NCBI GenBank assembly: GCA_022826485.1
Contig: JAJDUU010000021.1
Span: 129,558-193,557 of the forward strand
Direction of reading: 5' to 3'
DNA from: Chloroflexota bacterium
GTDB taxonomy: Bacteria > Chloroflexota > UBA11872
DNA length: 64,000 bases
A program made the translations under genes and the position numbers. This document shows positions 9,873-55,877 of this stretch, in pieces (position 1 is the stretch's first letter; each line of letters starts with the position of its first letter). The notes beneath the pieces were generated by a model. The model did not search any database, was not told where the DNA came from, and saw only the letters and a program-made list of their open reading frames with translations.

Positions 9873-11870
9873 ATGACAACCGACCAGATTTCGCACCAAT
9901 CCTCCGAGGCGTCCCAGCTCTTCGAGCCGCCGGCGGACTTCGCCGCGCGCGCGCACATCGGCTCGATGGAGCAGTACCACGAGCTGTATCGCCGCAGCCT
10001 CGAAGAGCCGGAGGCCTTCTGGCGCGAGATCACGGACGGCTTCGAGTGGATGAAGCCGTGGACCGAGTTGCTCGAGTGGGAGCCGCCGTTCGCCAAGTGG
10101 TTCGTCGACGGAACCACCAACATCAGCGTGAACTGCTTGGACCGCCATGTCGCCGCCGGTCGCGGCGATCGCGTCGCCTTCTATTGGGAAGGCGAGCCGG
10201 GCGACACGCGCGTGATTACGTATTCCGATCTGCTGCGGGACGTGCAGCGGTTTGCCAACGCCCTGCGGGCGTTGGGCCTGGAGCGCGGCGACCGGGTGCT
10301 GCTCTACATGCCGATGGTGCCGGAGCTGCCGGTCGCCATGCTGGCTTGCGCCCGACTGGGCCTGGTCCACAGCGTCGTGTTCGGCGGATTCAGCGCCGAT
10401 GCCATTCGGGACCGGGTGAACGACGCCGGCGCCTCGCTGGTGATCACCGCCGACGGCGGTTGGCGCCGCGGTCGTGTGATTCCGCTGAAGGGCAACGTCG
10501 ACGCCGCCCTGGCCGACGATTCATGTCCATCGGTTGGAAACGTGGTCGTGCTGAAGCGCTGCGAGAACGACATCGCCTGGATCGAGGGGCGCGATGTCTG
10601 GTGGGACGATGCCGTCGCCGATCAATCCGATGAGTGCCCCGCGGAAGATCTGCCCGCCGAGCACCCGCTCTACATCCTGTACACCAGCGGAACCACCGGA
10701 AAGCCCAAGGGCGTGGTGCACACCACGGCGGGCTACATGGTCTACACCGCCACCACGGCCAAGCTGATCTTCGACCTGCGCGACGACGACATCTACTGGT
10801 GCACCGCCGACATCGGCTGGGTCACCGGGCACAGCTATATCGTCTACGGCATCCTCGGCAACGGCGCCACGAGCGTAATCTACGAGGGCGCCCCCAACGC
10901 GCCGAAGGAGGACCGCTTCTGGGCCATCGTCGAGAAATACGGCGTCACGGTGCTCTACACCGCGCCCACGGCCATTCGGACCTTCGTGCGCTGGGGCGAG
11001 GAGCATCCCGATGGGCACGACCTCACCAGCCTGCGGCTGCTGGGGACCGTCGGCGAGCCGATCAATCCCGACGCGTGGCTCTGGTACCACCGGGTCATCG
11101 GCGGCGGGCGCTGCCCCATCGTGGATACCTGGTGGCAGACGGAGACCGGCGGAGTCCTGATCACGCCGCTGCCGGGCGCGATTGCGCAGAAGCCGGGCTC
11201 GGCCACGCTGCCATTCCCCGGCACCGAGCCGCAGATCGTCGACGAGCAGGGTGAGGCGCTGCCCGACGGCACGCGCGGCCTGCTGGTGCTGAATCGGCCC
11301 TGGCCGGGGATGCTGCGCGGCATCTACAAGGACGGCTGGGGCGTTCCGGGGCATCCCGGCGAGCACGGCGACGCCGAGCGTTTCATCGAGCAGTATTGGG
11401 CCAAGTTCCCCGGGCGCTATCTGACCGGCGACGGGGCCGTGCGCGATTCCGACGGCTACTTCTGGATCATCGGGCGCGTCGACGACACGCTCAACGTCTC
11501 GGGGCATCGCATCGGCACGGCGGAGGTCGAGAGCGCCCTGGTGAGCCACGCCGCAGTGGCCGAATCCGCGGTCGTGGGCACGCCGGACCCCATCACCGGC
11601 GAGGCCATCGCCGCTTTCGTCACGCTGCGCGGCGGCATCGACGCCTCGGACGCCATGCACGCCGAGCTGACGGCGCACGTTGGCGAGAAGCTGGGACGCT
11701 TCGCGCGGCCCAAGCAGCTGCGCTTTGCCGATGCCCTGCCCAAGACCAGGAGCGGCAAGATTATGCGCCGGCTTTTGCGCGATATCGCCGCCGGTCGCGA
11801 GGTGGCCGGCGACACCACCACGCTCGAGGATCTGACGGTCTTGGCCCAATTGCGGGGCGACGAGGAATAG
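9873..11870 (+). CDS. acs: acetyl-CoA synthetase (AMP-forming)
   Basis: A 665-residue adenylate-forming enzyme that activates acetate (or a similar short acid) to acyl-CoA through an acyl-AMP. It has the N-terminal ACAS domain ([23 protein letters not shown]), the P-loop [11 protein letters not shown] near residues 268-278, the family block [10 protein letters not shown] and the C-terminal lysine in [10 protein letters not shown] (about Lys629), which is the site normally acetylated in Acs. Length equals typical Acs (about 650). The Trp in WWQTETGG fits a small acyl pocket, hence acetate. The divergent AOR operon suggests the enzyme may also use acids made from aldehydes. Confidence 0.93.
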
Positions 11871-11956: not shown

Positions 11957-12526
11957 ATGCAGGTCACCGGGTCCCGTCGAACCGCGCGCCTCGGGCGCGC
12001 CATTTGCGCGATTCTTGGCGGAGTGATTCTCGCCGGCGCGCTGGCGGCGTGCGGCGAGTCTGGCGACTTTTCCCACCTCGAACCTACCCCTGAACCGACC
12101 CCCGTCGTCGCCCAAATGCTGGCCACGGCGCCGCTCGGGCGGACGGTTCCGGCCTTGCCGCCGGCGCCACCGCCCCGCACGCCGGAGGCGGTGGTCACCA
12201 TCACCGCACCAACGCCCGTCGTGATCGAGACGGCTCCTCCAACCGCGACGCCTATGGTCATCTCGGATCCACCTGAAGTCTTTGAGGATCGAAGAGAATT
12301 CTCTTCGCCCGGTCATCAGCTCTTTGTCGACAACGGCTGCACGGTCTGCCACGCCGAGGACCTGAGCGGCGGCATCGGCCCGGCACTCGCGGGGCGGACC
12401 GTTGACGATCTCACCGAGGAGCGCATCCGCCAGCAGCTCGGCGAGGGCGGCAATGGGATGCCGCCGTTCCCCGATCTGACCGAGGTGCAGATCGGTCAGC
12501 TGATCGCGTTTATTCGCAGCTCCTGA
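11957..12526 (+). CDS. c-type cytochrome lipoprotein
   Basis: A 189-residue exported monohaem cytochrome c. It has a signal peptide with lipobox LAAC (Cys32), a Pro/Thr-rich linker of about 75 residues, then a small class-I cytochrome domain with haem motif CTVCH (Cys128, Cys131, His132) and a likely axial Met in GMPPFPDL. An upstream ATG at 11903 is in frame, but a -10-like TAATAC at 11896-11901 would place transcription start at or after that codon, so 11957 is preferred. It begins the cluster of exported redox lipoproteins and probably shuttles electrons on the outer face of the membrane. Confidence 0.85.
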   Translation: MQVTGSRRTARLGRAICAILGGVILAGALAACGESGDFSHLEPTPEPTPVVAQMLATAPLGRTVPALPPAPPPRTPEAVVTITAPTPVVIETAPPTATPMVISDPPEVFEDRREFSSPGHQLFVDNGCTVCHAEDLSGGIGPALAGRTVDDLTEERIRQQLGEGGNGMPPFPDLTEVQIGQLIAFIRSS

Positions 12527-14502: not shown

Positions 14503-14532
14503 CTGGATTCCCGCCTCCGCGGGAATGACGGA
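14503..14532. repeat. palindromic dispersed repeat (CTGGATTCCCGC...GCGGGAATGAC)
   Basis: A single copy of a recurrent hairpin sequence, with arms GATTCCCGC and GCGGGAAT around a short CTCC-type loop, ending in the common tail GAATGACGGA. It lies between the second selenoprotein gene and the Gfo/Idh gene. Confidence 0.8.
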
Positions 14533-20222: not shown

Positions 20223-20252
20223 CTAGATTCCCGCCTTCGCGGGAATGACGGA
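20223..20252. repeat. palindromic dispersed repeat (TAGATTCCCGC...GCGGGAATGAC)
   Basis: Second clear single copy of the GATTCCCGC / GCGGGAAT hairpin with tail GAATGACGGA. It occupies the otherwise empty 204-base gap between the sialidase-fold gene and the NucS-like gene. Confidence 0.8.
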
Positions 20253-26455: not shown

Positions 26456-26540
26456 AGGGTGGGGAGTGGCGATGAGCTGCGCGGTGGAGGCTCCCGCGCC
26501 GTATCGAGTGCGGGGGTGAAGGGATACCAAGGGATGCGGC

Positions 26541-27125
26541 AATTTCGTCCCCTCATCCCAACCTTCTCCCCAAGGGAGAAGGAGCCGGGCGACCTGCCGG
26601 ATCGGCGATGCCGTTGCCCGAACTCTCCAGTTGCCGCCCACCCGAGCCGGAAGGGACGGTCCGGTTCCCTCTCCCTGTGGGAGAGGGCTAGAGCCTGCCA
26701 CTTACCGCACCCGGGGGGCGAGGATTCCACGCGTCGCGGCAGTTTCGTCCCCTCATCCCAGCCTTCTCCCCAAGGGAGAAGGAGCCGGGCGACCTGCCGG
26801 ATCGGCGATGGCGTTGTCCAAACTCTCCAGTCGCCGCCCACTCGATCCGGAAGGGACGGTCCGGTTCCCTCTCCCTGTGGGAGAGGGCTAGAGCCTGCCA
26901 CTTACCGCACCCGGGGGGCGAGGATTCCACGCGTCGCGGCAATTTCGTCCCCTCATCCCAACCTTCTCCCCAAGGGAGAAGGAGCCGGACGACCTGCCGG
27001 ATTGGCGATGCCGTTGCCCAAACTCTCCAGTTGCCACCCACGCGAGCCGGATGAGTCGGTCCGGTTCCCTCTCCCATGGGGAGAGGGATAGAGCCTGCCC
27101 CGTACCGCGATACGGGGGTGAGGGG
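26541..27125. repeat. three-copy tandem repeat of 200 bp
   Basis: Copies begin at 26541, 26741 and 26941, an exact 200-base period; the third loses similarity near 27100. Each carries CCTTCTCCCCAAGGGAGAAGG and CCCTCTCCCTGTGGGAGAGGG palindromes, a GCCGCCCAC-type spacer and GAGCCTGCC. Apparent frames through it are artefacts. From 26085 to 27149 I see no gene, only repeats. Confidence 0.9.
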
Positions 27126-27149: not shown

Positions 27150-30100
27150 ATGCCGCGGCTGACGACCGCCGTCGAAACCTACTTCCAAGACCTGCGGCGC
27201 ATCCGCGCCTCGGGCGGCGCCACGGCCGAAACCTCCCGCTACACCCCGCTGGAGAACCTGCTCAACGCGGTCGGCGGCAGCCTCAGACCCAAGGTGTTTT
27301 GCATTGGGCAACTGGCGAACCTGGGCGCCGGCCATCCCGACTGCGGCCTCTTCGCCGCCAGGCAGGTCCAGCGCGGCACGCCGCGCGAAGGGCAAACGCC
27401 CGAGCACGGCGTGGTCGAAGTCAAGCCCCTGGACGACGACGCCTGGCTCACCGCCGAGGGCGAGCAGGTCAGCAAGTATTGGGGTCGCTATCGCCTGGTC
27501 CTGGTCACCAACTACCGCGACTTCGTGCTCGTCGGCGACGACGCGGCGGGAATGCCGGCCAAGCTGGAAACCTTCCGGCTAGCCGCCGACGCGGAGGACT
27601 TCGACCGAATGCTGGAGAAGCCGCGAGCCTTTGCCAACCAGGTCGGCGCGGGTCTGATCGAATACCTGCTGCGCGTGCTCAAGCACCGCGCCGTGCTGGC
27701 CGAGCCCAGGGATCTCGCCTGGTTGCTCGCCTCGTATGCCCGCGACGGCCTGGCGCGGGTCGAGGCGGCCGGCGACGCTCCGTCCCTGGCGGCCGTGCGC
27801 GGGGCGCTGGAAGAAGCGCTGGGCGTCAGGTTCGAGGGGGATCGCGGCGCGGCGTTCTTCCGTTCCACGCTGGTGCAAACGCTCTTTTACGGCGTCTTTT
27901 CCGCCTGGGTGCTGTGGGCGCGCCAGGCTTCGCCGCCGTCGGGCGCGTTCGACTGGCGCACGGCCGTCTGGCACCTGCGCGCGCCGGTGCTGCGGGCGCT
28001 GTTCCAGCAGCTTTCGGATCCCGGCCGCCTGCAACCCCTCGGCCTGGTCGAGGTGTTGGACTGGACCAACGCCGCGCTCGACCGCGTGGACCAGGGCGCC
28101 TTCTTCGCCCGCTTCAACGAGGGCGAGGCGGTGCCCTATTTCTACGAGCCGTTCCTGCAGGAGTTCGACCCGGCTCTGCGCAGGCAGCTGGGCGTCTGGT
28201 ACACGCCGTCCGAGGTGGTGCGGTACATGGTGGCGCGGGTGGACCGCGCGCTGCGGGACGACCTGGGAATCGCCGACGGGCTGGCGGCGGAGAACGTCTA
28301 CGTGCTCGATCCCTGCTGCGGCACCGGCGCCTACCTGGCGGAAGTCCTGCGCCGCATCGCCGCCAACCTTCAGGACCGGGGCCTGGGCGCGCTGACCGGG
28401 GCGCACGTCAAGCGGGCGGCGCTGGATCGGGTGTTCGGTTTCGAGATCATGCCCGCGCCGTTCGTGGTGGCCCACCTGCAAGTCGGGCTGACCATGCAGG
28501 ACCTCGACGCGCCGCTGGCCGAGGACGGCGACGAGCGCGCCGGCGTCTTTCTCACCAACGCGCTCACCGGCTGGGAGCCCACGGTGCAGAAGCCGCTGCC
28601 GTTTCCCGAGTTGGAGGAAGAACGCGACCGCGCCGAACGGGTCAAGCAGGACACGCCGATCCTCGTGATCCTGGGCAATCCGCCCTACAACGGCTTCGCG
28701 GGCATGGCCGTGGACGAGGAACGGGAGCTGTCTACGGCCTACCGCACGACCCGGCGCGTACGGCGACCCGAGGGCCAGGGGCTGAACGACCTCTACGTGC
28801 GCTTCTTCCGCATGGCCGAGCGCCGCATCGCCGAGAAGACGGGCCAAGGCGTGGTCTGCTTCATCTCCAACTACTCGTGGCTGGACGGGCTGTCGTTCAC
28901 CGGAATGCGTGAGCGCTACTTGGAAGCCTTCGACGAAATTCGGATCGACAATCTTCACGGCGACCGGATCATCTCCGAGTACGCGCCGGACGGTCGGACG
29001 AGCGAAACCGTCTTTGCGCTTGGCGGGCAGTCACCGGGAATCAGAATCGGTACGGCTATTGCCTTGCTCTCTAAGTCGGGCACAGCGGAGACATCACCTG
29101 TTGAGACACAGATCCGGTATCGCGACTTTCATCAGGCACGAGCGGAAGAGCGGCGGCAGGCGCTGTTGGCGAGCCTGGACGACACTGAAATGGATTCGGG
29201 CTATTCCACGCTCGAGCCCGAACTGCGGCTTGGTCTGCCATTCAAGCCGATGGCCGTCAGCCAAGACTGGTTCGATTGGCCGGCGCTGACGGACTTGTTT
29301 CCAACTTCATTTCCCGGCGTCAAGACTAGCCGTGACGCCTTTCTGGTCGATGCCGACCTCGATCGGCTCAAGGCGCGCCTTGCCGATTACTTCGACCCGG
29401 AGTTGCGCCACGATGAGATCACGGGGCGCTATCCGGGCGTGATGCAGAGCACGCGCCGGTTCAATGCCGCCGTGGTCCGCGACGCGCTGCTCCGACGCAG
29501 CGGGCCGACGGAAAGCGGCTTCGTCCAGTACGCGTACCGACCGTTCGACACCCGCTGGCTCTACTGGGAAGCCGACACCAAGCTGTTGGATGAGAAGCGT
29601 GCCGAATACATGCCGCACGTCTTCGCGAGAAACCTGTGGCTGGTCACCCAGCAGAAACCGCGCCGGGAATGGTCACCGCCACAGGTCACCTCGTATCTCG
29701 GCTGCATCGACTTGATGGATAGGAGCGCTACTTGCGTTCCCGCCTGGCTCCGCGAAGACGCCCTGGGAACCGACGGCAGCGGAGAAATCCCCCGCCGCCC
29801 CAACCTGTCGCCTGCTGCCCGCCGCTACCTAGACCGCTTGGGCCTGGGTGTCGAGGACCTCTTCAACCACGTCCTGGCCGTGCTGCACGATCCCGCCTAC
29901 CGCGAGGCCAACGCCGGCGCGCTGCGCATGGAATGGCCCCGCATCCCGCTCCCCGGCTGGGCAGAGCTGTCGGTCAGTCCGGCCGCCCCCTCCGTCATTC
30001 CGGTGAAAACCGGAATCCAGGGTCCGCAGCGTCCCGCGCCCGAGGACTGGATACCGGCCTCCGCCGGTATGACTGAGGGAAGGGCCGCTGCCGGTGTCAC

Positions 30101-30665
30101 GTCTTCCCACCAGGCGCCGCGCGTCGAGCACGCAGATTCCCCTGCCGAACAAGCCGCCCAAACCCTGGCCGCCTCCGCCGCACGCGGGCGCGAGCTGGCC
30201 GCCCTGCTGGACTCCGACACGCCCGTCCCCGGCGTCACCACCGGCCAACTCCGCCCCGAGATCGCCGCCATCGCCGTGCCCGCCACCACCCACGGCGGCA
30301 ACATGACCGGCGACGACTTCGCCCTCACCGCCGGCTGGGGTCACTTCGGCAACAGCCAGGCCGTCATGCCCGGCCAGGGCCGCACGGTCGAACGTGCCTA
30401 CACCCAAGCCGAACGCGAGGCGCTTGGCGATGCCATCGACACCATCGGCGACAGGACTTTCGACATCTACCTCAACGACCGCGCCTACTGGCGCAACGTC
30501 CCCGCCGCCGACTGGCGCTACAAGCTCGGTGGCTACCAGGTCCTCAAGAAGTGGCTCTCCTACCGCGAGCAAACCATCCTCGACCGCCCGCTGCGTCCCG
30601 AGGAAGTCCAGCACTTCACCGACACCGCGCGGCGGATTGCGGCGATCCACCTTCTGGGAAAATAG
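27150..30665 (+). CDS. type IIG-like restriction-modification enzyme (nuclease + N6-adenine methyltransferase)
   Basis: A 1171-residue single-chain enzyme. The N-terminal 200 residues have a PD-(D/E)XK pattern: PDCGLFA, then GVVEVKPLDDD (E-x-K near residue 91). The methyltransferase core follows: SAM motif I VLDPCCGTGAYL (about 385-396) and motif IV NPPYNGF (about 510-516), which marks an N6-adenine class. Downstream regions fit target recognition. No helicase motifs are present, which separates it from type ISP enzymes. ATG 27150 is chosen since sequence upstream is repeat. Residues about 949-975 are encoded by a composite palindromic element (29994-30073) kept in frame. It lies in an accessory island with HicBA and a HEPN-like protein. 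Confidence 0.85.
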   Translation: MPRLTTAVETYFQDLRRIRASGGATAETSRYTPLENLLNAVGGSLRPKVFCIGQLANLGAGHPDCGLFAARQVQRGTPREGQTPEHGVVEVKPLDDDAWLTAEGEQVSKYWGRYRLVLVTNYRDFVLVGDDAAGMPAKLETFRLAADAEDFDRMLEKPRAFANQVGAGLIEYLLRVLKHRAVLAEPRDLAWLLASYARDGLARVEAAGDAPSLAAVRGALEEALGVRFEGDRGAAFFRSTLVQTLFYGVFSAWVLWARQASPPSGAFDWRTAVWHLRAPVLRALFQQLSDPGRLQPLGLVEVLDWTNAALDRVDQGAFFARFNEGEAVPYFYEPFLQEFDPALRRQLGVWYTPSEVVRYMVARVDRALRDDLGIADGLAAENVYVLDPCCGTGAYLAEVLRRIAANLQDRGLGALTGAHVKRAALDRVFGFEIMPAPFVVAHLQVGLTMQDLDAPLAEDGDERAGVFLTNALTGWEPTVQKPLPFPELEEERDRAERVKQDTPILVILGNPPYNGFAGMAVDEERELSTAYRTTRRVRRPEGQGLNDLYVRFFRMAERRIAEKTGQGVVCFISNYSWLDGLSFTGMRERYLEAFDEIRIDNLHGDRIISEYAPDGRTSETVFALGGQSPGIRIGTAIALLSKSGTAETSPVETQIRYRDFHQARAEERRQALLASLDDTEMDSGYSTLEPELRLGLPFKPMAVSQDWFDWPALTDLFPTSFPGVKTSRDAFLVDADLDRLKARLADYFDPELRHDEITGRYPGVMQSTRRFNAAVVRDALLRRSGPTESGFVQYAYRPFDTRWLYWEADTKLLDEKRAEYMPHVFARNLWLVTQQKPRREWSPPQVTSYLGCIDLMDRSATCVPAWLREDALGTDGSGEIPRRPNLSPAARRYLDRLGLGVEDLFNHVLAVLHDPAYREANAGALRMEWPRIPLPGWAELSVSPAAPSVIPVKTGIQGPQRPAPEDWIPASAGMTEGRAAAGVTSSHQAPRVEHADSPAEQAAQTLAASAARGRELAALLDSDTPVPGVTTGQLRPEIAAIAVPATTHGGNMTGDDFALTAGWGHFGNSQAVMPGQGRTVERAYTQAEREALGDAIDTIGDRTFDIYLNDRAYWRNVPAADWRYKLGGYQVLKKWLSYREQTILDRPLRPEEVQHFTDTARRIAAIHLLGK
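29994..30073. repeat. composite palindromic element inside the methyltransferase gene
   Basis: GTCATTCCGG-TGAAAA-CCGGAATCCAG, 26 bases, then CTGGATACCGG-CCTCCG-CCGGTATGAC. The same architecture as the intergenic copies at 45885 and 49945, here translated as about 27 residues (VIPVKTGIQ ... WIPASAGMT) without breaking the frame. Confidence 0.85.
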
Positions 30666-31212: not shown

Positions 31213-31629
31213 GCAAGTATCCCGTGAGCCTCGTTGCGCAGCGGCAGCGAACGCCGGCAGCCAGGTCCGCCCCACGAGGTTGAATCATCGACAGGATTCC
31301 AGGGCAAGCCCAGAATGACGGAAGAGGAAACCGGCCTTGGCGACACGGCGCCCGCCTCCGTCATTCCCGTGAAGACGGGAATCCAGTCCGACTCCAGCTC
31401 CAAGGAATGCGGAGATGCTGTCTAAGGGAGGATGTGCCAGGGCCAGGCAGTTCTGCTTCACTCAGCGAAAGCACATTCTCCCGGTGGAAGTGTTTGACCA
31501 ACCACCACAGGCATTGGATCTGCGCACCTTCAGGACGCTGAGTGCTCCGGCAATGCGTGCAACGCTCTCGGTAAAGGAAACTAGAGACTCAGAAGGCCTA
31601 GCCCGAGAGTCGTAGAGGGAATTCTGAAC
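31213..31629. other. 417-base gap with two degenerate palindromic repeats
   Basis: It holds a degenerate hairpin at about 31293-31320 (GGATTCCAGGGCAAGCCCAGAATGACGG) and a clean one at 31360-31386 (GTCATTCCCG...CGGGAATCCAG). Short frames across it look like shadows. The base composition falls from about 31400 towards the next gene. No RNA gene recognised. Confidence 0.6.
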
Positions 31630-33048: not shown

Positions 33049-33211
33049 GATACTCAGCTGCCCGATGGCCGCAATCGAGCCCAGCTAGTCTGGCGCGGCA
33101 AGCCGCCGGACGACGCGGCCGCGATCGAACGTCTGAGAGTCCTCGCCTGCGGCTCGGAATGACTGGTTGGGGCGCGTGGCATGACAGGTGGCGCCGCTCC
33201 GAACCGGACTG

Positions 33212-33293
33212 GTCATTCCGAACGCAGTGAGGAATCTAAGGACGCTGCGCCTTCTTCCCTGCCCCTTAGATTTCTCGCTTCGCTCGAAATGAC
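33212..33293. repeat. inverted repeat of the AACGCAG-GAGGAATC family, copy 2
   Basis: GTCATTCCGAACGCAGTGAGGAATC ... TTTCTCGCTTCGCTCGAAATGAC, the better-preserved relative of 26379-26455. The ends are complementary. Confidence 0.7.
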
Positions 33294-33297
33294 AATG

Positions 33298-33366
33298 GTG
33301 GCCCACGCTGCGGGCAGCGTGGGACCGGCCCGAGTCGAATCCCACGCTGCGCGCAGCGCGGGCCAC
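33298..33366. repeat. GTGGCCCACGCTG repeat, copy 1
   Basis: A pair of CCACGCTGC-containing hairpins enclosed by GTGGCCC and GGGCCAC ends. A close copy is at 50084-50156. Together with the preceding repeat it fills the 382 bases between the HEPN-like gene and the helicase; I see no gene there. Confidence 0.7.
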
Positions 33367-33430
33367 TGGGCCGCATTCCGTAGGATTGAAGCCGGCCGCG
33401 GATAGCCGGCTGGACCTGAAACCGGTGGTC

Positions 33431-36400
33431 ATGGCGACGACGTCGATTGCTCCCACGAGCCTGGTCGACGGCTTTTGCCCCACGGTGCGGGATTGGTTCC
33501 TGGAGCGCTTTGGCGCGCCGACGGATGCGCAGGCGGCGGGGTGGCCCGCGATCATGAGCGGGCGCGACACGCTGCTGGCGGCGCCGACCGGGTCGGGCAA
33601 AACGTTGGCCGCGTTCATGGCCGGGATCGACCGGCTGGTGCGCGAGGCGGAGGCCGGCGCCCTGGAGGCCGAGACCTCGATCGTCTACGTGTCGCCGTTG
33701 AAGGCGCTGAGCAACGATATTCAGCGCAACCTGGAGGAGCCCCTGGAGGGCATCCGCCGGCGCGCGATCGAGGAGGGTCGAGAGCCTCCGGCGATTCGCA
33801 CGGGCCTACGCACCGGCGACACGACCGCCAACGAGCGGCAGCAGATGGTGCGCCGGCCGCCGCACATCCTCATCACCACGCCGGAGTCGCTGTATCTGAT
33901 GGTCACCGCCCAGCGCAGCCGCGAGACGCTGCGCGGCGTGACCACCGTGATCGTCGACGAGATCCACGCCCTGGCCCGCGACCGCCGCGGCTCGCACCTG
34001 GCGCTCACGTTGGCGCGGCTGGACCACATTGCCGACGCGCGGCCCCAGCGCGTCGGGCTGTCAGCCACGCAACGACCCATCGACGAAATCGCCCGGTTCC
34101 TGACGGGCATGGACCCGGATGCGGCGCCGCGACCCTGCGACGTCGTGGTCCTCGGGCACCAGCGCCACCTGGAGCTGGCCATCGAGGCGCCGCCCACCGA
34201 CCTGGAAGCCGTGGCGCCGCGGGAGCAGTGGGGCGAAATCTACGACCGCCTGGCCGAGTTGGTGACCGGACACCGCACGACGCTGGTGTTCGTGAACACG
34301 CGCACCCTGTCGGAGCGGGTGGCCCACAACCTGGCCGAGCGGCTGGGCGACGACGCGGTGGCGAGCCACCACGGCAGCCTGTCCAAAGAGCGCCGGCAAC
34401 GCGTCGAGCAGCGGCTGAAGGCCGGCGACCTCAAGGCGCTGGTGGCCACGGCCTCGCTGGAGCTCGGCATCGACATCGGCAGCATCGACCTGGTGTGCCA
34501 GATCGGATCGCCGCGCAGCATGGCGACGTTCCTGCAGCGCATCGGGCGCTCCGGTCACGCGCTCGGTCTGCGTCCCCACGGGCGGCTGTTCCCGACGACC
34601 CGGGACGAGTTGATCGAGGCCGCGGCGCTGATTCGGGGAGTCCGCGCGGGCCGGCTGGACCGCATTCATATCCCCGAGGCGCCGCGCGATGTCCTGGCGC
34701 AGCAGATCGTGGCCGAGTGCGCCTGCGAGGACTGGTCTGAGGACGCGCTGTTCGACCTCATGCGCACCGCCCAGCCGTACGCGGAGCTCGCGCGCAGCAA
34801 CTTCGATGAAATCGTCGAGATGCTGGCGCGGGGAATCGGCGAAGGCGCCGGCCGGTCGGCGCCGCTCGTCCACTGGGACCGGATTCACGGGGACGTGCGG
34901 GGACAGCGGGGCGCGCGCCTGGCCGCCGTCATGAACGGCGGGACGATTCCCGAGACGGGCGACTACCAGGTCGTCGCCGAGCCCGACGACGCGGTGGTCG
35001 GCTCGGTGAACGAGGACTTCGCCATGGAGAGCATGGCGGGCGACATCTTTCTGCTGGGCAGCACCTCGTGGCGCATTCGCCGCGTCGAGCAGAGCACCGT
35101 GCGCGTGGTGGACGCCCAGGGCGCGCCGCCCACGATCCCCTTCTGGCTCGGCGAGGCGCCGGGTCGAACGCGAGAGCTGTCGCAGGAGGTCGGTCGGTTG
35201 CGCCGCGACATCGTGGACGGACTCGACGATCCGGCCGCCCTGCGGGCGCGGCTGCAATTCGAGTGCGCCGTGCCGCCGACCGCGGCGGCGCAGATGGTCG
35301 ACTACGTGCGCGTGACGCGCGACGGCCTGGGGCTAGTCCCGTCCGACCGCGACGTCGTCTACGAGCGATTCTTCGACGACTCGGGCGGCATGCAGCTGGT
35401 GGTGCACGCGCCGTTCGGCCAGCGCGTCAACCGCGCCTGGGGGCTGGCGCTGCGCAAGCGGTTTTGCGTGCGCTTCGACTTCGAGCTGCAGGCCGCGGCC
35501 AACGACGACGCGATCCTGCTTTCGCTGGGTCCGCAGCACTCGTTTCCCCTCGAGGAGACCTTTCGCTACGTCACCTCGGCCAACGTCGCGAAATCGCTCC
35601 AGCAGGCGATTCTCTACGTGCCGCTGTTCCCGACCCGCTGGCGCTGGAACGTCACGCGCGCGCTCGCTGTGGCGCGGCAGCGCGGCGGGAAGCGCGTGCC
35701 GCCGTATCTTCAGCGCCTGCGATCGGACGATCTGCTGGCCGCCGTATTTCCCGAGCAAGTCGGCTGCCAGGAGAACGTCACCGGCCCCCTGGAGGTGCCG
35801 GACCATCCCCTGATCGAGCAGACGGTGCAGGACTGCCTCACGGAGGCGATGGACCTGCCGGAGCTGGTGCGCATCCTGGAGCGGATCGAGGCGGGCGAGA
35901 TCCGCCTGCACGCCCGGGACACCGTCGAGCCCTCGCCGATGGCGCATGAGATCGTGAGCGGCCGGCCCTACACCTACCTCGACGACGCGCCGATCGAGGA
36001 GCGGCGCACGCGAGCCGTGAGCTTGCGGCGGGCGCTGCCCGAGAGCGCCAGGGACCTGGGCGCATTGGACGCCGACGCCATCGCGCAGGTCGCCGAGGAG
36101 GCCTGGCCGGATCCCCGCGATGCCGAGGACGTGCACGACGCGCTGCTCGGCCTGGTGGCCGTTGCGGAACCGGTGGTCGGCGATTGGCTCGACTGGCTCC
36201 ACGAGCTGTCCGCGGCGGGCCGCGCGCTCAATCTCTCGATCGGCGACACGGTCCTGTGGTCGGCGGCGGAGCACCTCCCAGCCCTGCGGCTGCTCTACCC
36301 CGCAGAAGCGGTTCCGAACGTGCGGCTGCCATCCCGCGCCGAGCTTCCGGTTGACGACCGCGAATCGGCCCGCCGGCTGCTGCTCCGGGGACATTCCGAG

Positions 36401-45737: not shown

Positions 45738-45884
45738 CGCACGGTCCTCCGTCACACGGCATTGCGCGCATAGTGGCCCGACGGCCTGCCGCTGTCGAGG
45801 CGCGGGGCGGCGTCGAGTCCCCTCTCCAATGGTGGGAAAGGGCATGGATGAGGGGGCAGTCATGAGCGGCCGCGGTTCATTCTC

Positions 45885-45965
45885 GTCACCCCGGCGGAAG
45901 CCGGGGTCCAGCGTCTCCCGAAACGCCGGAAACCCCGACTGGATTCCGGCCTTCGCCGGAATGAC
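45885..45965. repeat. composite palindromic element (REPIN-like)
   Basis: 81 bases: GTCACCCCGGC-GGAA-GCCGGGGTCCAG, 27-base spacer, CTGGATTCCGGC-CTTC-GCCGGAATGAC. It lies in the 275-base gap between the isomerase-like gene start and the dnaE stop. CCCTCTCCAATGGTGGGAAAGGG at about 45820-45842 is a degraded member of the other repeat family. Confidence 0.85.
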
Positions 45966-46012
45966 GGAGGAGCTTGGCTAGGGTCCGACCAACGCCGACG
46001 GAATAGGCAGCC

Positions 46013-49816: not shown

Positions 49817-49944
49817 GCCGTGCCTCCCCGGTCAGCCGGCGGCATTGTAGGCACCGAACATATTGCGGACAAACGCAGGGTGCGCTGGTGACCCTGTAGC
49901 GGCCTCCTCGCGGCGGATGCACACCGTCGCACGGATGCTTCCCC

Positions 49945-50025
49945 GTCACCCCGGCGAAAGCCGGGGTCCAGATCCGCCCGACGCGCCGGAGATCCCGCCT
50001 GGATTCCGGCCTCCGCCGGAATGAC
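49945..50025. repeat. composite palindromic element (REPIN-like)
   Basis: 81 bases with the same plan and spacer length as 45885-45965; spacer reads ATCCGCCCGACGCGCCGGAG then ATCCCGC. It lies in the 421-base gap upstream of dnaE. Confidence 0.85.
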
Positions 50026-50083
50026 GGACAGGAAGCAGACCACTAGCAGGAGTGACGGCGGGTACGGCGAGCCACCAGCATCC

Positions 50084-51441: not shown

Positions 51442-51530
51442 GGGGCGGTTCGCGAACCGCCCCGGCGCCGCGCATCCAGGCGCCACCAGGTTCAACCGGA
51501 CTGGATTCCGGCTTCCGCCGGAAGGACGGA
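51442..51530. repeat. palindrome plus REP-type hairpin, possible terminator
   Basis: A 22-base perfect palindrome with arms GGGGCGGTTCG / CGAACCGCCCC (51442-51463), then 37 bases, then CTGGATTCCGGC-TTCC-GCCGGAAGGACGGA (51501-51530). The same palindrome-spacer-hairpin order follows the gene ending at 55755. Confidence 0.65.
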
Positions 51531-55787: not shown

Positions 55788-55877
55788 GGGCGAGTCTGAG
55801 ACTCGCCCCCACGATGGGATTCCAGCGCGCGCCCAAGTTCGACCGGACTGGATTCCGGCGTTCGCCGGAATGATGGA
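55788..55877. repeat. palindrome plus REP-type hairpin, possible terminator
   Basis: GGGCGAGTCTGAGACTCGCCC (55788-55808), 39 bases, then CTGGATTCCGGC-GTTC-GCCGGAATGATGG. The same modular plan as 51442-51530; the spacer again ends in GACCGGA before the hairpin. It lies just after the uracil-DNA glycosylase stop. Confidence 0.7.

Follow-up and report, generated by a model that had tools for sequence, protein, structure and literature searches.

We analysed a 64,000-nucleotide stretch of a Chloroflexota genome, hereafter the window, in which a single-chain restriction-modification (RM) gene carries a palindromic repeat within its reading frame. The gene, the repeat and the two linkers discussed below are located as follows, with residues counted from the ATG at 27150.

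27150..30665, plus strand: RM gene of 1171 aa encoding a single-chain enzyme (Type ISP / Type IIG-like); the ORF is open from 27051 and the ATG lies at 27150
29973..30143, plus strand: insert in linker 1, 57 residues (942-998) relative to the alignment of 87 homologues; coil in the AlphaFold model
29993..30019, plus strand: left CGTC-1 arm with CGTC tag, 8-bp stem, GAAA loop and CCA tail; reads SVIPVKTGIQ
30021..30046, plus strand: 26-nt spacer between the arms
30048..30074, minus strand: right CGTC-1 arm, mirrored; translated as WIPASAGMT, with the tag AGTC where the congener (L032/L061) has CGTC
30423..30437, plus strand: site of linker 2 (residues 1092-1096), unoccupied in the window gene and filled by CGTC or other repeats in homologues

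The gene matched the Pfam profiles PF18135 Type_ISP_C (1.9e-39) and N6_Mtase (1.1e-07) and, in PADLOC, REase_MTase_IIG (3.5e-90), and it contains the methylase motifs DPCCGTG at residue 387 and NPPY at residue 510. We classify its product as a putative Type ISP restriction enzyme, for which nuclease and translocase activity is predicted. The structure PDB 7lo5 (Type ISP / MmeI-like) is homologous up to residue 934, so that the main match stops just before linker 1, while the C-terminal module is matched weakly; LlaGI (5ffj) and LlaBIII (4xqk) are homologous over a shorter stretch than 7lo5. The start at 27150 is favoured, as the homologues set in at residue 1, 2 or 3 when the protein is read from there; the element sets in at residue 949 from this start and at residue 982 from 27051. 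A 200-bp tandem repeat (26536-27108, 2.9 copies), whose unit contains CCTTCTCCC/GGGAGAAGG, ends at the start of the RM gene ORF.

The composite palindrome occupies 29994-30073 (80 bases), or 29993-30074 when the CGTC tag and the mirror tag are included. This is where the first-pass annotation had placed an 80-base two-hairpin element lying in frame in the RM gene, and its description is borne out: stem pairing is 8/8 in both arms, and the element runs through the Type ISP gene in frame and without a stop, with a coding length of about 27 residues. The element is made of two mirror-image 8-bp hairpins in facing orientation, separated by a short spacer and each built by design as CGTC, stem, 4-nt loop, stem and CCA. 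The left arm consists of CGTC, ATTCCGGT, GAAA, ACCGGAAT and CCA, and the right arm, on the opposite strand, of AGTC, ATACCGGC, GGAG, GCCGGTAT and CCA. Folded as RNA, positions 29985-30082 gave −51.3 kcal/mol (z −4.85), and none of 200 shuffles folded as well. Judged by its tag, stem, loop and tail, the element appears to be a CGTC-1 REP.

In the genome from which the window comes (G000, 3.17 Mb), the core of the 27-nt arm occurs 157 times as an exact match, against 0 for a reversed-pattern control. Among 150 distinct arms in the loci examined, CGTC was present in 145 and the CCA tail in 148, numbers that are partly selected because the core search pattern included GTC and partly CCA, with the leading C outside the pattern. 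The same arms started with ATTCC in 121 cases and with ACCCC in 25. A strict arm definition, which misses diverged partners, sorted the arms into 22 dimers and 106 singles; a tag-to-tag length of 83 nt was measured for 17 of the 22 dimers, and one of 82 nt for the element in the RM gene. Elsewhere in the window the following copies were located.

14503..14529, minus strand: single CGTC-type arm
20223..20249, minus strand: single CGTC-type arm
31360..31386, plus strand: single CGTC-type arm
45884..45966: CGTC dimer outside the RM gene (ACCCC arm and ATTCC arm), 83 nt with tags, 81 nt without
49944..50026: CGTC dimer outside the RM gene (ACCCC arm and ATTCC arm), 83 nt with tags, 81 nt without
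51501..51527, minus strand: single CGTC-type arm
55848..55874, minus strand: single CGTC-type arm

The two dimers had been noted earlier (as copies at 45885 and 49945) and taken to be of the same design as the element in the RM gene. This is correct for the layout but not for the make-up, as both measure 81 nt and join an ACCCC arm to an ATTCC arm, whereas the element has 80 nt and joins an ATTCC to an ATACC arm. The translation of a further ORF in the window (33085-33618, CHFERSEKSKG...FGMT) presumably resembles another translated palindromic repeat family. In six genomes of the genus the exact cores numbered 152, 127, 89, 27, 41 and 33, and in the sister genus g2 0-2 per genome; cores were present in some members of families f2, f4 and f5, and the searched members of family f3 had none.

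We then compared the window gene (L031) with its homologues, including that of the congener G003 (L061, entered as the pair L032/L061). Many of the homologue records are, we assume, MAG bins from sponges (one record is named Spongia_Bin9). The comparison set comprised 87 non-identical homologues after removal of identical rows, of rows not spanning the protein and of L044 and L139, whose frame differs; L044 has a frameshift in linker 1, without a CGTC arm. Linker 1 is bounded by WPRIPLPGW and the helix AAExLAxSAARGREL and is short (a few residues) in most of the 87. At column 941, at least 6 extra residues were present in 25 of them and at least 15 in 11, and another large insert was placed at 938. 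Outside the two linkers, inserts of at least 15 residues occurred at five places, in one homologue each. CGTC arms were found in 5 of the 87 homologues, nine arms altogether, and all nine lay within one of the two linkers; in 20 sets of codon-shuffled controls, the matches per set numbered 0-3. The dimer in linker 1 is common to L031 and the congener L032; L035 has three arms, one of them in linker 1 and the others in linker 2, L039 has one arm, and L038 has one in linker 2. In addition, L038 and L040 contain a further arm disrupted by another palindrome, and L033 a partial arm. Other repeats were seen as well: a GTAG palindrome in linker 1 of G004, G025 and G029 (7 copies genome-wide in G025, 8 in G029 and, in G004, only the linker 1 copy), a split GTAG palindrome in L041, and CCCTCTCCC-type repeats in linker 1 of L035, in linker 2 of L076 and at residue 209 of L036. 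Linker 1 is thus a hotspot: in several lineages, CGTC arms, GTAG palindromes and the CCCTCTCCC repeat entered either it or linker 2.

The alignment also bears on whether these residues are simply ancestral enzyme sequence that resembles a palindrome by chance. Their presence in a congener would fit such an origin, but they are absent from most homologues, the repeat class is found genome-wide, and the arms are paired at 8/8 positions and accompanied by a tail and by a tag or near-tag; the alignment refutes the idea, and we put its likelihood at practically nil. Unrelated homologues with the same residues and no palindrome, the case that the first-pass annotation had named as telling against an insertion, did not turn up: VIPVKTGI occurs in one homologue (L065/L039), together with an intact single arm, and VVPVKT in two (L038, L040), together with the disrupted arm. 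The expectation that homologues would lack about 27 residues at residue 949 agrees with our data in position (counted from 27150) and in the length of the element, but not for the linker as a whole, in which all 57 residues from 942 to 998 are extra.

An AlphaFold run on residues 640-1171 with 50 sequences returned a model with a mean pLDDT of 83.4 and a pTM of 0.79. Model residues 302-358 formed coil, the element corresponding to 310-336, and pLDDT was 36-53 in the ten-residue blocks from 311 to 350, as compared to 86-97 in the flanking blocks 241-300 and mostly 88-97 from 361 onwards. The inserted stretch is thus modelled as a low-confidence coil between confident domains and predicted to be disordered. 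Both this coil and the homologue comparison agree with the earlier suggestion that the element sits in a likely linker where it could be tolerated.

The same pattern was found in other genes, among them a second RM gene of the same genome.

G000:C24:70013-74735: second RM gene (L184), 1574 aa; Eco57I 1.6e-19; DrmMI/Type IIG in PADLOC

This gene contains two in-frame mosaics (at about residues 199-285 and 935-1060), each composed of a CGTC dimer, a GEGWDGG repeat and an SPVRGEPVEP repeat. In G002, IADDGDALRAF replaces a stretch of about 90 residues of the G000 protein, and in G020 the gene is contiguous at both mosaic sites; the congener G003 has arms elsewhere in the gene, and the f4 genomes have them after residue 830 and in another frame. 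Arms were counted in 9 of 24 loci of this gene, a tally made by the longest marked ORF that omits L196 (three arms) and counts three loci (L189, L191, L198) in which the arms were not placed within the aligned gene. UvrA is single-copy, as UvrA_DNA-bind matched once in each of 8 genomes. Five UvrA proteins of family f4 (L269-L272, L276) carry 3-11 in-frame CGTC arms, 11 of them in L276, at one place behind UvrA_inter; that of G025 has two arrays, and the three UvrA of genus g1 examined for CGTC arms had none. In G025, the MoCF_biosynth domain of MoeA (L266:907-2511) is interrupted by a mosaic of about 100 residues, and an iron-sulphur protein (L250, Pfam below cut-off) resembles the mosaic-carrying genes.

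Surveys of whole genomes put these cases in context. In the window's own genome, 3 of 145 arms passed the coding test on both sides, two of them in the window RM gene and one in the second RM gene. The Pfam survey of this genome covered 20 ORFs besides the window gene, taken from 85 candidate ORFs, and returned the second RM gene; the remaining elements preceded the domains found (FtsY, HAD, aldo-keto reductase, RibD, FGE), and translation may really begin behind them. For G005 and G025, 30 of 39 and 30 of 36 loci were surveyed and 10 candidate ORFs were scanned with Pfam; the G005 part (30 of 39 loci, five ORFs scanned) contained no clearly interior element. Copies of CCCTCTCCC in RM genes numbered 5 over 8 genomes, above an expectation of 0.39 calculated from the share of bases, for genes picked after the fact. 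We also considered whether RM genes are the only targets. The clearly interior cases in the own-genome survey were the two RM genes only, but in G025 UvrA and MoeA carry arrays and a mosaic, and RM exclusivity was therefore rejected. A wider proposal, in which unrelated palindromic families keep rebuilding the linkers of DNA-handling enzymes (two RM enzymes, UvrA) and of MoeA in this Chloroflexota group, so that new protein segments arise continually and some of them have become useful (for linker length, or for tuning repair or restriction) and are selected, seems to us unlikely.

The reading frames of the arms bear on a different question: Could the element be removed at the RNA level, or bypassed, so that the enzyme is made without it? 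Excision of 81 nt of the tagged element would keep the frame, and the hairpin is strong. However, removal before translation would make the inner frame and any stops irrelevant, and open frames thus argue against it: a single stop-free coding frame was found in 4 of the 5 homologues of the window gene with CGTC arms, and no inner stops are listed for the other arm-bearing genes (seven loci of the second RM gene, five UvrA). Some mosaics are not open, since in linker 1 of L035/L077 (G020) a TGA stop comes in with the CCCTCTCCC repeat that adjoins the CGTC arm; behind this stop the C-terminal part keeps the frame. By frame, the intragenic arms were distributed as V 6, W 2 and H 1 in the window gene and its homologues, V 4, L 8 and H 6 in the second RM gene, and H 21 and L 9 in UvrA. 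Neither the S frame nor the G frame, which contains a stop, was used by any of the 57 intragenic arms, which are not independent copies; the S frame of forward arms is open yet unused (0 of 38 forward intragenic arms, likewise not independent). RNA-level removal need not be invoked because the frame is stop-free in most of these homologues and the gene is under purifying selection (see below). We know of no bacterial machinery for removal in such a context and consider it highly improbable.

A FastTree phylogeny of the core columns had the topology (L033,(L031,(L032,(L076,L041)))) with supports of 0.97-0.999. The dimer-free L076 and L041 are nested within the clade of the carriers L031 and L032 (support 0.998-0.999), so that either loss of the dimer or local recombination or exchange must be assumed. 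Between L031 and L032, both of which carry the insert, pS was 0.286 and pN 0.077 before the linker, and 0.169 and 0.044 after it; the RM gene that carries the insert is thus under purifying selection. Within the element pS was 0.10 (2 synonymous and 2 other changes), and the 5 differences over 82 nt affected 0 of 32 stem bases and 5 of 50 unpaired bases. The numbers are small, and the identity of the stems is no more than suggestive of a special conservation of the element. The inserted peptide or the RNA hairpin might have been recruited for a function (linker length, regulation of nuclease or translocation, tuning of translation) and kept by selection, as the unchanged stems and the pS lower than in the gene before the linker would allow, together with the UvrA arrays kept in 5 of 5 f4 genomes examined. 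The identity of the element between the two copies (0.95), however, lies at a mere 71st percentile among the 80-nt windows of the gene, element-free relatives exist, and the content and length of the linkers vary between species, which argues against a specific peptide. We regard recruitment as quite unlikely.

The reading that we prefer, and hold to be very probably correct, is that a non-autonomous CGTC-1 REP dimer inserted in an ancestor and was tolerated as a translated linker of the Type ISP enzyme. The data show the repeat family, the in-frame position, the absence from most homologues, the sharing with the congener, recurrent hits on these linkers by unrelated repeats, the predicted disorder and the purifying selection on the gene. 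The dimer would have been mobile and, by transposition, would have entered the gene in the ancestor of the genus, at the flexible linker that joins the C-terminal module to the main part of the enzyme. With an open frame at the landing site, transcription and translation of the dimer would yield an unstructured stretch of 27 residues, with a near-neutral effect that leaves the enzyme usable. The site itself would not be chosen by selection; insertions in folded parts, or those breaking the frame, would be purged, and the survivors would therefore sit in linkers. In this way selfish DNA can add new protein segments, repeatedly at the same linkers, in a lineage far from Rickettsia. Closely related versions of these proteins are empty or contain one arm, a dimer or an array, so that the tolerance of REP peptides can be tested directly on enzymes that are easily assayed (restriction, UvrA).

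Mobilisation by a RAYT in the genus was rejected for now: the tag is CGTC, not GTAG, and a profile search for the Y1 transposase PF01797 found none in the window's own genome and none in six genus genomes (genomes 92-97% complete). In G025 (G025:C10:11752-12260), GTAG palindromes at 11752 and 12052 adjoin a weak match to a Y1 transposase (12090-12260), and the palindromes and this match may constitute a REP-transposase pair. The GTAG REPs/REPINs that go with RAYT transposases are short mirrored palindromes in high copy. The element resembles them in both respects, and a GTAG palindrome is also found in the same linker of relatives, but its tag is different and the six genus genomes are without the transposase.

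The Rickettsia palindromic elements share with the element an in-frame position in protein genes (Ogata 2000, 2002, as cited in PMC10969869 and PMC3733652) but are about 150 bp long as reviewed there; the present element is a dimer of 80 nt, and several repeat families combine into mosaics. The Rickettsia-type reading offered in the first-pass annotation is supported by the homologue comparison, by the structure prediction and by Di Nocera 2013 (PMC3733652), in which the CGTC-1 REP class includes RPE-6 of Rickettsia itself and the neisserial dRS3, RPE-4 being a CGTC REP as well. CGTC REPs are described there as having no dedicated transposase, with which the absence of PF01797 agrees; intragenic REPs are reported, uvrA being one of the genes concerned, with flexible linkers proposed, and our cases bear on the question raised there of whether REPs in repair genes are flexible-linker accidents or changes of function. 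In the literature under open licence, we found no paper on such repeats in sponge Chloroflexi or in RM genes. The likeness to the CGTC-1 REP family, as described in PMC3733652, extends to the CGTC tag, the 8-bp stem starting with AT pairs, the 4-nt loop and the CCA tail, and also to the facing pairs with spacers, the high copy number, the intragenic copies and the lack of a dedicated transposase. The differences lie in the hosts, which here are relatives within the Chloroflexota (the five phyla for which that paper names CGTC repeats do not include Chloroflexi), and in the presence of RM enzymes among the genes hit. The element is thus of a known kind; the host lineage and the genes hit are new.
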